The translations under genes were made by a program, and so were the position numbers. The notes under the pieces are model-generated. The model did not search any database. It saw only the letters and a list, made by a program, of their open reading frames with translations, and had not been told where the DNA came from. This document shows positions 14,858 through 31,157 of a DNA stretch of 34,642 nt, piece by piece (position 1 is the stretch's first letter; each line of letters starts with the position of its first letter). The stretch is from Spartobacteria bacterium. Lineage in GTDB: Bacteria > Verrucomicrobiota > Verrucomicrobiia > Chthoniobacterales > UBA10450. The DNA is taken from assembly GCA_003169975.1 (NCBI GenBank), contig PNAA01000015.1, positions 17,904-52,545 of the forward strand, read 5' to 3'.

Positions 14858-17161
14858 ATGCGATTCGAAGACAATAGCCTGCTCTTCGGCTTCGATCCGA
14901 CACCGCGCATCGTCGCGCTCGAGCTGGGCGACACCGGCACGATGCGGGTTTATCGGCGCGAGAAGGATGGCGCGACGGTTTGTGACACCGAGGAATTTCA
15001 TCCCTTTGTCTGGGCCGATGGCGACGTGGCCGATCTTGGCCTAACGAACGCCGAGAAACTGGCGGGCGACGCGAAATACAACTGGCTGGTCACGACCGAC
15101 AGCTGGAAGGAACTGATCGCGCTCCGCAACGGGCTGAAGAATGCGGGCCGCAATTTTTTCGCGTTGAGCGATCCGATCCAGCATTATCTCACGCACACCG
15201 GGCGGACGCTCTTCAAGCAGCTGCCGTTTGAAGAACTGAAGCGGATGCAGATCGAGGTCATCTCCTCTGTCGCGGGGATCGGCGATCCCGGAAGCGCGGC
15301 CGAGGATTCAAAAGCCGGGATCATCGATCCCGGCGACAGCGATCACCTCACGAGCATCGCCGTTTGCGATAACACCGGCTGGGAGGAACTGATCGCGGTC
15401 GATCCGCGCGCGATCGAGGAGTCCGAGCACGCGGCGATCAAACGCCTAACGAGCCTGATCAAGGAGCGCGACCCCGATGTGATCGAGGGGCACAACCTTT
15501 TCAAGTTTGACCTTCCGTTTCTCGTCGCCCGCGCGCGGAAAGCGAAGACGAAACTGGACTGGGGGAGGAGCGGCGGGTTTCTTCGCTCGCGGCCATCGCG
15601 GCTGCAGATCGCGGAAAAGACGATCGATTATCCGAAATTCACGCTCGACGGCCGGCATTTCGTCGACACGTTTCTGCTCGCGCAGTTTTACGACGTCGGG
15701 ATGCGTTCGCTCTCCGGCTTCGAGCGAAGCGATGTCGCGCAGCACTTTGGCCTAACGAACGCGGCCGACATCTCGCAATTGTCGGGCAAGGAACTGCAGC
15801 GCGCCTGGCAGGATGATCCGAGACGTTATCGCGAACGCGCCCTCTGCGCGGTGCGCGAGACGCGGGCGGTCGCTGATCTGCTCAGCCCGAGTTACTTCAT
15901 CCAGGCGCAGATTTTCCCCTACAACTATCAGGACGTGATCGTGCGCGGCAACGCCACCCGAATCAACGCGCTTTTCCTCCGCGAATATTTCCGGCAACGC
16001 CACGGCATCCCCGAGATGCCGATGGTGCGCGGTTTCGAGGGCGGTTACACCGACATCTTTTTCAGCGGCGTGGCGCGCAACGTCTGGCATTGCGACGTCG
16101 CCTCGCTCTATCCGTCGATCATGCTGCAGTTCGATTGTTTTCCGGTGAACGATCAGCTCCAGATCTTTCGCCATCTGCTCACGGACCTGCGCACCTTTCG
16201 CCTCCAGGCGAAGAGCGATATGCGCGACGCGAAGGACGCGCCGCAGCGGCGTTATTTCCACGCGCTGCAAAACACCTTCAAGATTCTGATCAACAGCTTC
16301 TACGGTTACCTCGGTTTCGCGCAGGGAAACTTCGCCGACTTCGAAGCCGCCGCCCGCGTCACGCAGATCGGGCGCGATTTGCTCAAGAAAATGATCGAAT
16401 GGCTCAAAGCGCAGGGCGCGCAGGTCATCGAAGTCGACACGGATGGCATTTATTTCGTGCCTCCTGTAGCCGCGTCCCTGCGGGACGCGTCGGGCGGTGC
16501 TGCCAACACGGACGCCGCGCACAGGGCGGCGGCCACAATTGAAAATCTGCGCGCCGGTCTGGCGAAAGAATTGCCGCCCGGAATCGAGGTCGAGTTCGAC
16601 GAGCAGTTCGACGCCATGTTCAGCTACAAGGCGAAGAACTACGCGCTCCTGACCCGCAACGGCGAGGTCGTGATCAAGGGCGGCGCGCTCAAATCGCGTG
16701 GGCTGGAGAAATTCCAGCGCGTCTTCCTTGAGGAAATGATCAAACTCCTGATGGAAGGAAAAGCGGAAGGGATCGCGCCGTTGCGCGACAAGTTCGCGCA
16801 AAAGATCCGCGACCGCGAATGGCCGATCGAGATGCTGATGAAAACCGACACTCTCCAGGATTCGCTCGAGAAATACCGGCAGAAAATCGCCGGCGGCGGC
16901 CGCAACAAGGCCGCCGTCTACGAGCTCGCCCTAACGAGCGGCCGCAATTACAAACCGGGCGACCAGATCAGCTACTACGTGAAAGCCACCCCGAAAAAAG
17001 TCGCGGCCTACGAAGCGGCCAAACTGGTGACCGATTTCGATCCGCAAAACCGCGACGAGAACATCGACTACTACGTCGCCAAGCTCGATGATCTGGTGAA
17101 GAAGTTTGCGGGCGTGACCGCCGGAGCGTCATCAGCGAAACAGGGGAGTCTGGCCCTTTAG
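14858..17161 (+). CDS. Family-B DNA polymerase, exonuclease motifs degraded
   Basis: This 767-residue polymerase has all three catalytic motifs: A at Asp413 (DVASLYPSIM), B at 475-484 (KILINSFYGYLG) and C at Asp527/Asp529 (IEVDTDGIYF). The N-terminal half is the 3'-5' exonuclease fold. Exo II is intact (GHNLFKFDLPFL, N213 and D218). Exo I reads MQIEV (130-134) without the usual Asp-x-Glu, and Exo III reads ERALCAVRET without the Tyr and Asp. Polymerisation should work; proofreading is doubtful, which would suit lesion bypass or repair. About 25 residues after motif C (about 536-560) are encoded by a palindromic insert. GCCTAACG or CCCTAACG occurs four times in the gene. The stop overlaps the toxin gene on the other strand. 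Confidence 0.9.
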   Translation: MRFEDNSLLFGFDPTPRIVALELGDTGTMRVYRREKDGATVCDTEEFHPFVWADGDVADLGLTNAEKLAGDAKYNWLVTTDSWKELIALRNGLKNAGRNFFALSDPIQHYLTHTGRTLFKQLPFEELKRMQIEVISSVAGIGDPGSAAEDSKAGIIDPGDSDHLTSIAVCDNTGWEELIAVDPRAIEESEHAAIKRLTSLIKERDPDVIEGHNLFKFDLPFLVARARKAKTKLDWGRSGGFLRSRPSRLQIAEKTIDYPKFTLDGRHFVDTFLLAQFYDVGMRSLSGFERSDVAQHFGLTNAADISQLSGKELQRAWQDDPRRYRERALCAVRETRAVADLLSPSYFIQAQIFPYNYQDVIVRGNATRINALFLREYFRQRHGIPEMPMVRGFEGGYTDIFFSGVARNVWHCDVASLYPSIMLQFDCFPVNDQLQIFRHLLTDLRTFRLQAKSDMRDAKDAPQRRYFHALQNTFKILINSFYGYLGFAQGNFADFEAAARVTQIGRDLLKKMIEWLKAQGAQVIEVDTDGIYFVPPVAASLRDASGGAANTDAAHRAAATIENLRAGLAKELPPGIEVEFDEQFDAMFSYKAKNYALLTRNGEVVIKGGALKSRGLEKFQRVFLEEMIKLLMEGKAEGIAPLRDKFAQKIRDREWPIEMLMKTDTLQDSLEKYRQKIAGGGRNKAAVYELALTSGRNYKPGDQISYYVKATPKKVAAYEAAKLVTDFDPQNRDENIDYYVAKLDDLVKKFAGVTAGASSAKQGSLAL
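16465..16537 (+). repeat. Palindromic element inserted in frame in polB
   Basis: The element is bounded by TGTAG (16465) and CCACA (16533-16537). Its left half is a perfect hairpin, CGCGTCCC-TGC-GGGACGCG; the right half has a weaker one, GCCGC...GCGGC. It adds a Ser/Ala/Asp-rich loop just after polymerase motif C without breaking the frame. Its right end coincides with the start of the segment duplicated at 17769-18399. The outline resembles the compact TGTAG...CTACA element at 28996-29059. Confidence 0.6.
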
Positions 17162-18407: not shown

Positions 18408-19289
18408 TTAATCGACGACCTGAAGACTTCGGAGCAATTGCGAAAGTTCTGCCTGGTCGGCGGCGTAGTACGCCTCCCACTTGCGGCGCGCTTCCGGCGT
18501 GAGCGGCTCGTATTTCTGGGCCCTGCTGTTGAGGCGGTGATAGGCGCTTTGCAACGTTTTGGCGACGACGGGTGATTTCAGGATTTTGCCGACGCCAGGG
18601 AGCGCGGAGATTCCCTCGTAGACTCGCTGAGCGCCGGATTGCAAAAGGGGAAAACGCGGAGCCCGGGCCTCGTTTTTCCCAGCGTCAAGTTGAGGCTGAA
18701 ACGCCGGGTCGACGTTGAGGAATTGGTAGACGCTTTCGCGCACGCGATCGGGAGCGCGCCGGATGGCGTCGAATTGAACGATCAGAATATTGTCGGCCGG
18801 AAAGCGGTCGAGATATGGCTTGAGATGGCGCGCGTAGCATCCGAGATCGCGCAGAAATGGATTCTCCATCATCCCCGCGAACGTTTCCGGCAAAGGCGCG
18901 ACCACGGCGTTGCGGTTGTACCAATACCAGGAGTAGATCATCTCCACCGGCGGGCGCAGGCAGAGCAGCAGTTTGATATCGGGCCGATACGACTTGATGC
19001 GATCGGCGGCTTCCTCCAGATAAAGGTAGGAAGGACAAAATTCGCCCCGACACGAAACTGCTCCCCTGGCGGCCGGAAATTGTTCGTGATACCAGACCTC
19101 GCCTCGGTCAAAGCAATGCAGCTCCTTGCCGGCGAGCCGGCGCATGATCGTGTCGGCGAAGTAGTAGACCTCCTTGTCCGGGGCGAAGCCGATTTGCGGA
19201 TGGGCTTCGAGCTGAGCGGACAGCCAGGTGGTTCCGCATTTCGGTGCGCCGATGCCGATAAAATCGATTTGGGACATTTGAGATATCAT
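18408..19289 (-). CDS. PAPS-dependent sulfotransferase
   Basis: This 293-residue enzyme is predicted to transfer sulfate from PAPS to a carbohydrate or other acceptor. The 5'-phosphosulfate loop is at the N-terminus (FIGIGAPKCGTTWLSAQLEA, about 10-29). The 3'-phosphate site lies at about 110-125 (CLRPPVEMIYSWYWYNRN, with the Arg and Ser expected). Length and layout fit the heparan-sulfate-type (Sulfotransfer_1) family. The start is ATG at 19287-19289 or the Met five codons on. It begins one base after the stop of the upstream AI-2E permease gene, so they share a transcript. The acceptor is unknown. Confidence 0.9.
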   Translation of the reverse strand: MISQMSQIDFIGIGAPKCGTTWLSAQLEAHPQIGFAPDKEVYYFADTIMRRLAGKELHCFDRGEVWYHEQFPAARGAVSCRGEFCPSYLYLEEAADRIKSYRPDIKLLLCLRPPVEMIYSWYWYNRNAVVAPLPETFAGMMENPFLRDLGCYARHLKPYLDRFPADNILIVQFDAIRRAPDRVRESVYQFLNVDPAFQPQLDAGKNEARAPRFPLLQSGAQRVYEGISALPGVGKILKSPVVAKTLQSAYHRLNSRAQKYEPLTPEARRKWEAYYAADQAELSQLLRSLQVVD

Positions 19290-28995: not shown

Positions 28996-29059
28996 TGTAG
29001 CGTCGGCTGTCTCAGCCGAAAATTGCGACGGCCCTTCCGCTGGGACAGCGGACTCTACA
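28996..29059. repeat. Compact double-hairpin element bounded by TGTAG/CTACA
   Basis: TGTAG (28996-29000) and CTACA (29055-29059) form the ends. Inside are two hairpins: TCGGCTG-TCT-CAGCCGA (29003-29019) and TCCGCTG-GGA-CAGCGGA (29036-29052). The layout resembles a REP-like mobile palindrome, and the polB insert at 16465-16537 shares the TGTAG start and a similar left hairpin. No transposase is nearby. A short frame running through it (29023-29205) is not convincing as a gene. Confidence 0.65.
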
Positions 29060-29139
29060 ACCGGCGGGTCTGGGAGCACGACCAGCCGTTCAAAAAATAC
29101 CTGACGCGGGTGCGCTGCTTCTACGCCGGAGCGCCGCGT

Positions 29140-29419
29140 GAGTTCAGGAGGACATTTTCAGAACTCGCGAAAAGATTTCGTGAATTCGGGCTGGGCCCCT
29201 CATGAATTCAAGTATGGCCGGCAGCATTTCGCGGAGCCGGTTCCAGAATTCACGAAACGACCGCCTGAACTCGGGTTGGCGTCCCTGGAACTCATTTGCA
29301 GCCACGATCAATTCGTGAGCCGCTGTCGAGAGTTCACGCCCGCGTCGCGCGAACTCCAAAAGATACGCCCCAAATTCAGGGAAACATTTCGTGATGTCGA
29401 CCGGACGCTCTTTGAACTC
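29140..29419. repeat. Fourteen 21-bp units phased on GAATTC-like hexamers
   Basis: Hexamers related to GAATTC or GAACTC start at 29140, 29161, 29182, then 29204, 29225, 29246, 29267, 29288, 29309, 29330, 29351, 29372, 29393 and 29414. Spacing is exactly 21 except one 22. The 15 bases between are highly variable, but some units share wording (ATTTCGTGA precedes the hexamers at 29182 and 29393). The hexamer is palindromic, so both strands read Glu-Phe/Leu every seven residues. One 1-bp slip between units 3 and 4 divides the array. Confidence 0.9.
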
Positions 29420-29434
29420 TTGCCCGATAGCCAA
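29144..29434 (-). CDS. Heptad-repeat protein, xxxxxE[F/L/M] units
   Basis: This 96-residue frame divides into 13 successive heptads. Eleven of the first eleven end in an acidic residue plus a hydrophobic one: GQEF, VDI, PEF, LEF, REL, HEL, NEF, PEF, REF, REM, LEF. The Glu is kept more strictly on this strand (10 Glu, 1 Asp) than on the other (which has His, Gln and Lys at three units), supporting this strand as coding. The start is TTG 29432-29434 with GGAGG seven bases upstream (GGAGGGCATAATTG). The last two heptads lose the pattern after a 1-bp slip. It is no known coiled coil, since only one hydrophobic position per heptad is fixed. The function is unknown. Confidence 0.5.
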   Translation of the reverse strand: MAIGQEFKERPVDITKCFPEFGAYLLEFARRGRELSTAAHELIVAANEFQGRQPEFRRSFREFWNRLREMLPAILEFMRGPARIHEIFSRVLKMSS

Positions 29435-29436
29435 TT

Positions 29437-29811
29437 ATGCCCTCCAGACTCATCGTTAAGCCAGCGATCAACTTCCTCTCCACCGACCCAGACGCCCATC
29501 TCCTCGTGCCGGTCGGCGGAATCATTCGTTCCCTCACCAACAACGAAAATTCCCCGGACCCGTCGCCCTCCCTCGCGGTCGTCGCGGCGGCGCGCGACGA
29601 GTTTCGGGTCGTCGCGGGCAACGCCGCTGGCGGCGGCAAACTCCTGACCTTGCTGAAAAATGCGCGGAGGGCAGAGCTGGTCGGCCTCGTTCGGCAACTG
29701 GCCAGCTACGTGGCCGGAACGTGCGCTGGAGATCTGACCAAGCTCCCTTTGCTTCTTGAGTTGACTCTCTCCCTGCCCTTCAAAGTTCTGGTTTGCAAAA
29801 AAGCGGTCTGA
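29437..29811 (+). CDS. Small protein of a repeat-associated hypothetical family
   Basis: This 124-residue protein begins MPSRLIVKPAINFLSTDPDA. The core IIRSLTNNENSPDPSPSLAV, then NARRAELVGLVRQLASYVAG, resembles a helical domain found before fibronectin type III modules in Verrucomicrobiota and Bacteroidota proteins (motif 'N-A-R-x-A-L-V-x-L-L-R-Q-L-A-S-Y-V'). That family usually continues with a short 'LLSSGF' segment and FN3 domains; here the frame instead ends in a hydrophobic tail (LLLELTLSLPFKVLVC). It is probably a 3'-truncated member. The start is ATG 29437, two bases beyond the start of the heptad frame on the other strand, so the two are divergent. There is no good ribosome site. Confidence 0.6.
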   Translation: MPSRLIVKPAINFLSTDPDAHLLVPVGGIIRSLTNNENSPDPSPSLAVVAAARDEFRVVAGNAAGGGKLLTLLKNARRAELVGLVRQLASYVAGTCAGDLTKLPLLLELTLSLPFKVLVCKKAV

Positions 29812-29828
29812 TCTATTTGCTGGCTGCA

Positions 29829-31157
29829 ATGTTGCCGAAGACAAAGTATGCGCGCAGCGGCGACGTGCGCATCGCCTATCAGATCACTGGCGATGGGCCA
29901 TTCGACGTGGTCTGGGCGCCAGGCACGATGTCGCATCTTGATCTGGATTGGGAAATCCCGCAGCGCGCTCTTTTCTTCGAGCGTTTCAGCAAGTTCTGCC
30001 GCCTCATTCGTTTCGATAAACGCGGCACCGGTCTATCCGATCGTCCGGTGCATATGGCGACCCTCGAGGAGCGCACTGACGACATTCGCGCGGTGATGGA
30101 CGACGTCGGAATCGAGAGCGCCAATATTTTCGGCGTTTCCGAAGGCGGCTCGATGGCGTGTCTCTTCGCTGCCGCTCATCCGGAGCGGGTAAAGTCGCTC
30201 CTCATCTGGGGAGCCCAGGCTCGTTGGATAGCGTGCGAGGATCATCCCTGGGCACAAACGCCGGAGGAGCACAACGAGATGCTGGCGATGGTCCAGGACG
30301 ATTGGCCTTCGATTGATTACATCGTCGGACCTGGTGCCGGCATGGGCCGGGACGCGCCACCGGCCGCGGTCGAGGCTGTCGCCCGCTACATGCGCGCGGC
30401 GGCGAGCCCGTCGGCCGTCTATGCCTATGAGGTGATGAACGGCCAGATCGATACCCGTCCCATTCTCCCTTCGATCCAGGCGCCGACGCTGGTCATGAAT
30501 CGCACCGGCGATCCATGCGCTCGCGTCAAAGCCGCACGCGACATGGCATCGCGGATTCCGGGAGCAAGATTCATCGAGTATCCCGGTAACAGTCATTCCA
30601 TCATGCTCGACGACATGGAGACCATCCTTTCCGATGTGCATGAGTTCATCACCGGCGAACGACCGATCGAAACCTTTGATCGCGTCCTCGCGACCGTGCT
30701 CTTTCTCGACATCGCTTCATCGACCGAGCGCGCGGCAGCGCTCGGCGACACCGCCTGGCGCAATATCCTTAACTCCTACTACACGGTGGTGCGCAAGGAA
30801 CTGGCGCGCTTCCGGGGCAAGGAAACCAATACGACCGGCGACGGGTTTCTCGCGACTTTCGACGGCCCCGCGCGGGCGGTCCGTTGTGCGCTCGCGATCG
30901 CGCTCGCCGTCCGGCAGCTCGGGATCGAAGTGCGCGCGGGCGTGCACACCGGCGAATGCGAACTGATGGGTGACAATATCGGCGGCATCGCGGTCCACGC
31001 CGGCGCGCGGATCATGGCGAAAGCCGAGCCGGGCGTGGTCGTCGTTTCCCGCACCGTGAAGGATCTGGTCGCTGGTTCGGGCATCGATTTTCAAGACCTC
31101 GGCCTGCACGAATTAAAAGGCGTCCCCGGGGAGTGGCAACTCTTCTCGGCCGGCTGA
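29829..31157 (+). CDS. Alpha/beta-hydrolase fused to class III nucleotidyl cyclase
   Basis: This 442-residue protein starts at ATG 29829 (MLPKTKYARSGDVRIAYQIT), the normal family start; earlier codons in frame overlap the preceding gene. Residues about 1-280 are an alpha/beta-hydrolase with nucleophile Ser104 in FGVSEGGS, Asp228 in RTGDPC and His256 in PGNSHS. Residues about 285-442 are a class III adenylate/guanylate cyclase domain with metal ligands Asp294 (VLFLDIASSTE) and Asp338 (NTTGDGFLATF). The cyclase probably makes cAMP or cGMP from the nucleotide triphosphate, gated by the hydrolase domain acting as sensor; this is inferred. It has no membrane segment. Confidence 0.92.
   Translation: MLPKTKYARSGDVRIAYQITGDGPFDVVWAPGTMSHLDLDWEIPQRALFFERFSKFCRLIRFDKRGTGLSDRPVHMATLEERTDDIRAVMDDVGIESANIFGVSEGGSMACLFAAAHPERVKSLLIWGAQARWIACEDHPWAQTPEEHNEMLAMVQDDWPSIDYIVGPGAGMGRDAPPAAVEAVARYMRAAASPSAVYAYEVMNGQIDTRPILPSIQAPTLVMNRTGDPCARVKAARDMASRIPGARFIEYPGNSHSIMLDDMETILSDVHEFITGERPIETFDRVLATVLFLDIASSTERAAALGDTAWRNILNSYYTVVRKELARFRGKETNTTGDGFLATFDGPARAVRCALAIALAVRQLGIEVRAGVHTGECELMGDNIGGIAVHAGARIMAKAEPGVVVVSRTVKDLVAGSGIDFQDLGLHELKGVPGEWQLFSAG

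Follow-up and report, generated by a model that had tools for sequence, protein, structure and literature searches.

An array of palindromic sites in 21-bp phase in a Spartobacteria genome: a possible non-coding platform for a dimeric DNA-binding protein

The array and its surroundings

The window, meaning the whole stretch of DNA that was analysed, comprises 34,642 nucleotides of a Spartobacteria contig (PNAA01000015.1, assembly GCA_003169975.1). It holds an array of short repeated sites whose neighbours are a TPR protein, a fragment of an fn3-like gene and an alpha/beta hydrolase-cyclase. The last of these is a single gene (29793-31157) whose product combines an alpha/beta hydrolase domain with a guanylate/adenylate cyclase domain (PF00561, PF00211). 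The fn3-like gene stands directly to the right of the array and has lost its C-terminal half; its first ∼97 codons are 52-54% identical to an fn3-like gene in G019, a genome of another genus in the same family, where an array also lies beside the gene (locus L026/L103). A ∼68-bp element at 28996-29063, with inverted ends TTGTAG...CTACAA, recurs at several places in two genomes of the same genus (G003, G004) and resembles dispersed repeats of the REP or MITE kind.

The surroundings also hold a remnant of a nucleosidase-type gene (Table 1). In G000:C43 the corresponding PNP_UDP_1-type gene is intact, and three to four GAATTC-type sites form a short array downstream of it. The first unit of the window array (29136-29166) matches G000:C43:1732-1762 in 27 of 31 bases, collinearly and in the same orientation. 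Going by this likeness, the window array may have descended from a segment of the G000:C43 locus that was copied, in part deleted, and later extended. Because it sits beside gene fragments and an fn3-like gene without its C-terminal half, the window copy may be a relic that is no longer in use.

The array itself consists of 14 hexamers of the GARYTC type (29140-29419) set at 21-bp steps, with one 22-bp step from 29182 to 29204. Ten of the 14 match GARYTC perfectly; CAATTC and AAATTC carry one mismatch each, CATTTC and GATGTC two mismatches to GAATTC, and A2, T5 and C6 of the hexamer are present in all 14. A chain score that rewards GARYTC hexamers at 20-22-bp steps gives the array 64, whereas 60 resamplings of the window under a dinucleotide model average 10.1 and never exceed 13, and the second-best place in the window scores 9. 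Other periods from 12 to 33 yield chain scores of 7-12; the exceptions are 20 and 22, which pick up part of this array. The array is real and far beyond chance, and the original prediction of 14 GAATTC-related hexamers, spaced by 21 bp with a single one-base slip, is borne out.

That prediction also described the 15 bases between hexamers as nearly random. This is correct for most of the spacer (mean pairwise identity 0.28 vs 0.26 expected). Two positions that the prediction left unmentioned depart from it: relative to the hexamer, -3 is C in 11 of 14 units and +3 is G in 11 of 14 (binomial P ∼2.4e-4 and ∼2.9e-4). The conserved site in the window is a 12-bp imperfect palindrome, C-NN-GARYTC-NN-G (CNNGARYTCNNG). 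The extra base of the 22-bp step shifts the reading frame, while helical phase is kept to within ∼34 degrees.

Table 1. Coordinates of the array, its parts and the adjoining gene remnants in the window
Feature	Position	Strand	Remark
Nucleosidase-type (PNP_UDP_1) gene fragment, 60 bp	29059..29118	+	92% identical to G000:C43:2221-2280
Array of 14 palindromic sites, consensus C-NN-GARYTC-NN-G	29137..29434	.	21-bp phase, one 22-bp step
Hexamer starts	29140, 29161, 29182, 29204, 29225, 29246, 29267, 29288, 29309, 29330, 29351, 29372, 29393, 29414		
Three sites left of the frame break (29140, 29161, 29182)	29140..29187	.	
22-bp step	29203..29204	.	one extra base between sites 29182 and 29204
Eleven sites	29204..29419	.	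perfect 21-bp register
ORF of 96 codons, TTG start	29144..29434	-	probably no gene
Truncated gene adjoining the array, possibly a pseudogene	29437..29811	+	homology to fn3-like gene

Arrays in related genomes

The array in G019 lies directly upstream of the homologue of the fn3-like gene and has 15 sites in 21-bp phase, one 22-bp step and spacers unrelated to those of the window. Among more distant homologues (L041-L047) the GARYTC chain score detects no array, and a scan of contigs with the flanking gene as query gave only one further locus, a distant one. Two cases, the window and L026/L103, are all that connect the gene with an array.

A five-site pattern allowing up to three mismatches finds matches in 56 of 213 genomes of the order. 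These were sorted into coiled-coil regions of the CheB/CheR type, 7-bp microsatellites and a remainder of dedicated arrays. All 198 matches in one genome, G049, belong to a (GAACTCC)n microsatellite and were excluded: this genome holds dozens of such heptanucleotide tracts (e.g. L076, L114-L127), many at contig ends, which imitate period-21 arrays. An array-like match at L009 was dropped because it is the 3' end of a minus-strand coding gene, RdgB-like by eye.

Because the search pattern for the GARYTC arrays was itself a palindromic hexamer, the sample of dedicated arrays is biased for the core but not for any extension of it. Complementarity of the flanks about the hexamer centre is significant (p <0.05) at 11 of 23 dedicated loci, a few of which are orthologous or overlapping and not all independent, and at none of 17 control coiled-coil genes of the CheB/CheR type. 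The 11 are the window, L103, L093, L100, L101, L092, L105, L110, L111, L095 and L096. A search with a floating centre adds palindromes in L113 (GAAGTCGCGACTTC), L112, L094, L157 and L160, with none in 14 controls. The period-21 arrays L104, L107, L097, L136 and L185 have no significant palindrome.

Spacing was measured in 20 arrays, all from Verrucomicrobiota, by array-specific matrices with any step of 15-27 bp allowed. The steps comprise 279 of 21 bp, 13 of 22, three of 20, three of 23, one of 24 and none of 18. A reading frame forbids one-base steps and allows three-base steps, and helical phase does the opposite; the slips thus fit helical phase and not codons. In genome G544, arrays L105, L110 and L111 repeat a 13-14-bp palindrome, RTCTGARYKCAGAY or CTCTGAGTTCAGAG, at 20, 21 or 22 bp; RTCTGARYKCAGAY is found in L105 and L111, and L105 has stops in all six frames. 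Coding constraint is absent from many of the related arrays.

A motif-free scan of ∼0.4 Mb each of the window's own genome and of G557 turned up more period-21 arrays built on other motifs (L136, L157, L160). No motif is common to all arrays and each palindrome is array-specific, so that one sequence-specific protein could not bind them all. L136 (6568-6787, contig 51 of the own genome) is a second 21-bp array, unrelated in motif to that of the window, with a unit near ACCGCCCGGTCAATCGCCAGA. L160 in G557 holds two paralogous 21-bp arrays 3.4 kb apart (15552-15822 and 18932-19238), distinguished from each other by one unit and a handful of substitutions. The same genome has related composite 21/42-bp arrays at L108 (2080-2232) and L109 (1405-2214), each directly upstream of a small plus-strand membrane-protein gene, with a PGPGW domain in L108. 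L184 (G259) and L185 (G357), from two distant families of the phylum, have a common 21-bp unit, GARCTC..CACATAAGG, which may reflect convergence or transfer.

Three species of genus g19 keep an array ∼105 bp downstream of a peptidase M29 gene, in which whole units have been gained or lost and, in one species, one unit measures 20 bp. Arrays differ in their placement relative to genes (divergent, convergent or downstream), and this speaks against a simple function in promoters.

Identity between the spacers of an array ranges from 0.86 in L094 and 0.69 in L093, through 0.4-0.6 in most others, to the random level in the window (0.28) and in L103 (0.25). Core and phase are kept across this whole range. 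That spacers diverge to randomness while the core stays implies selection on core and phase. Growth and shrinkage of the arrays seem to proceed by units, with core and phase held thereafter. Literature searches, partial in their coverage, returned no description of such arrays.

Candidate explanations for the phased sites

The original prediction offered two readings, a new heptad protein encoded on the minus strand or a set of DNA sites phased at two helical turns; of the two, the second has the better support and the first is unsupported. The predicted TTG-initiated frame does exist, with GGAGG 6 nt before the TTG, a stretch that is also antisense to codons 2-3 of the plus-strand gene starting at 29437. 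Read on this strand, the hexamers encode Glu at 13 of 14 sites and Asp at one, followed by Phe, Leu, Met or Ile, with variable wobble positions, as in a short gene for a repeat protein of heptads xxxxxE[FLMI]. Trained on 194 ORFs of this genome, each 250 codons or longer, a codon model finds the frame gene-like (11.6 nats over composition), but scores the plus frame equally well at 11.3 nats, so that codon use favours neither strand. Shuffling the spacers around fixed hexamers leaves the minus frame open 6% of the time, and both strands together only 0.8% of the time; with shuffles that preserve columns, however, the shortage of stops is not significant (P 0.07). An unaligned, single-sequence AlphaFold2 model of the ORF is helical (mean pLDDT 70, pTM 0.49), an uncertain result that would be expected of any amphipathic repeat. 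Against a protein, the frame takes in only the 11 sites above the 22-bp step, the other three falling in another frame. The bases at -3 and +3 fall on codon position 1 before the Glu and codon position 3 after the Phe/Leu, where they encode chemically unrelated residues (L/R/P/N/H/V/Q at the C, M/L/W/R/Q/I/S/A/G/T/K at the G); conservation across such residues points to a constraint on DNA and not on amino acids. Pfam returns nothing above cut-off for the minus or the plus ORF, and protein searches in 58 relatives give no orthologue of the minus ORF, only weak matches that have no array. The L103 array, which lies beside the homologous gene, has stops in the Glu-Phe frame on both strands, which is the very observation that the original prediction had set in advance against a protein. 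With the frame break at 29203, these stops and the one-base slips of related arrays, the locus does not qualify as a heptad-repeat gene of the coiled-coil type, and a protein-coding origin of the pattern is improbable. As 21 is a multiple of three, arrays in two-turn phase mimic heptad-repeat genes on both strands, which is a warning for annotation.

The main rival to a binding function is a degenerate minisatellite without function, in which a palindromic 21-bp unit expanded through replication slippage and the resulting array is now decaying, the palindromes being by-products of hairpin-assisted template switching. The existence of young, near-identical arrays (L094, L107, L109, L093), the differences in unit number between species, the change of motif from array to array and the setting of the window array among gene fragments and dispersed repeats all speak for it. 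Neutral decay, however, should erase core, spacer and phase together, and the window and L103 have spacers at the random level, yet the window has three invariant hexamer positions and a single one-base slip in 13 steps; a minisatellite is on these grounds rather unlikely. Much less probable still is a function in RNA, whereby a transcript would form a row of hairpins by pairing of neighbouring palindromes and act as an attenuator, processing or stability element. Several arrays do lie just downstream of genes, and both strands of the window array fold better than shuffled sequences (z -2.7 and -3.6), but palindromic repeats fold well by construction and hairpins need no exact 21-nt phase. Paired positions do not covary, either within sites or between neighbours, and thus give no sign of a selected hairpin; Rfam finds no match in the window at gathering scores.

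The preferred explanation, marginally on the probable side, is that the array does not code for protein and that its palindromes, set in helical phase, are sites for a dimeric DNA-binding protein. One-base slips, extended palindromes and many non-coding relatives all favour phased DNA sites. Weighing against this explanation are the lack of a motif common to the arrays, the period-21 arrays in which no significant palindrome is seen and the gene fragments beside the window copy. Tandem duplication of a palindromic 21-bp unit already at the locus seems to be the origin of such arrays, after which the spacers would diverge freely while palindrome and spacing are kept. With 21 bp making two helical turns, all sites would present themselves on the same face of the DNA; each palindrome would be bound by a dimer of the putative protein, and neighbouring dimers would touch along that face. 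Contacts between dimers would explain the narrow, one-base tolerance in phase. The filament or wrapped complex formed in this way could act locally, in regulation of the flanking genes, in insulation or as an anchor for the nucleoid. Given the mixture of divergent, convergent and downstream gaps in which arrays lie, promoter control fits no better than a structural or insulating role. It is a tentative and less probable proposition that the arrays make up an undescribed class of chromosomal element in Verrucomicrobiota, in which spacing and dyad symmetry are selected and not one motif. In that case, candidate binders would include a reader of DNA shape or symmetry at two-turn intervals, such as a filament-forming or histone-like nucleoid protein, or else a family of dimeric repressors that co-evolve with their arrays.

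Resemblance to known repeat systems

The genes for CheB/CheR-PAS proteins, with their NEELQSTNEEL heptads, likewise have GARYTC-type hexamers every 21 bp. In contrast with the dedicated arrays they keep one open frame and lack the extended palindrome, and they are a confounder and no relative. REP and BIME elements (PMC3733652) share with the arrays the character of intergenic palindromic repeats, but they are palindromic elements of 20-40 bp dispersed in many copies, whereas the arrays each hold a single palindrome that recurs in strict 21-bp phase within one locus. Dispersal of the REP/BIME kind is not seen either, as ∼400 kb of the own genome contains only one short array with a related unit; the random spacers and the array-specific motif also set the array apart.

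Plasmid origins such as that of RK2 carry iterons, units of ∼17-22 bp in helix phase. The arrays described here have units of the same size class, also in helix phase. Unlike iterons, they occur many times per genome with unrelated motifs, the immediate neighbours searched in the window include no gene for a Rep initiator, and the window array, with an A+T content of ∼46%, has nothing that qualifies as an AT-rich unwinding region.

The centromere parC of ParMRC systems, for instance that of pSK41, is likewise made of short direct repeats at about two helical turns, in helix phase. ParR of pSK41 binds 20-bp repeats and seeds a solenoid of wrapped DNA (PMC9426499). The differences are that no parM (actin-like ATPase) or parR (ribbon-helix-helix) gene stands beside the window array, that the arrays here lie on contigs of chromosomal appearance, and that their sites are palindromic with an array-specific motif. 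By analogy, the layout resembles ParR-parC centromeres, and membership in that family is not claimed, its defining neighbours being absent. If the arrays are binding platforms, they would represent a chromosomal counterpart of plasmid centromere and iteron arrays in a large and little-studied phylum of soil bacteria.
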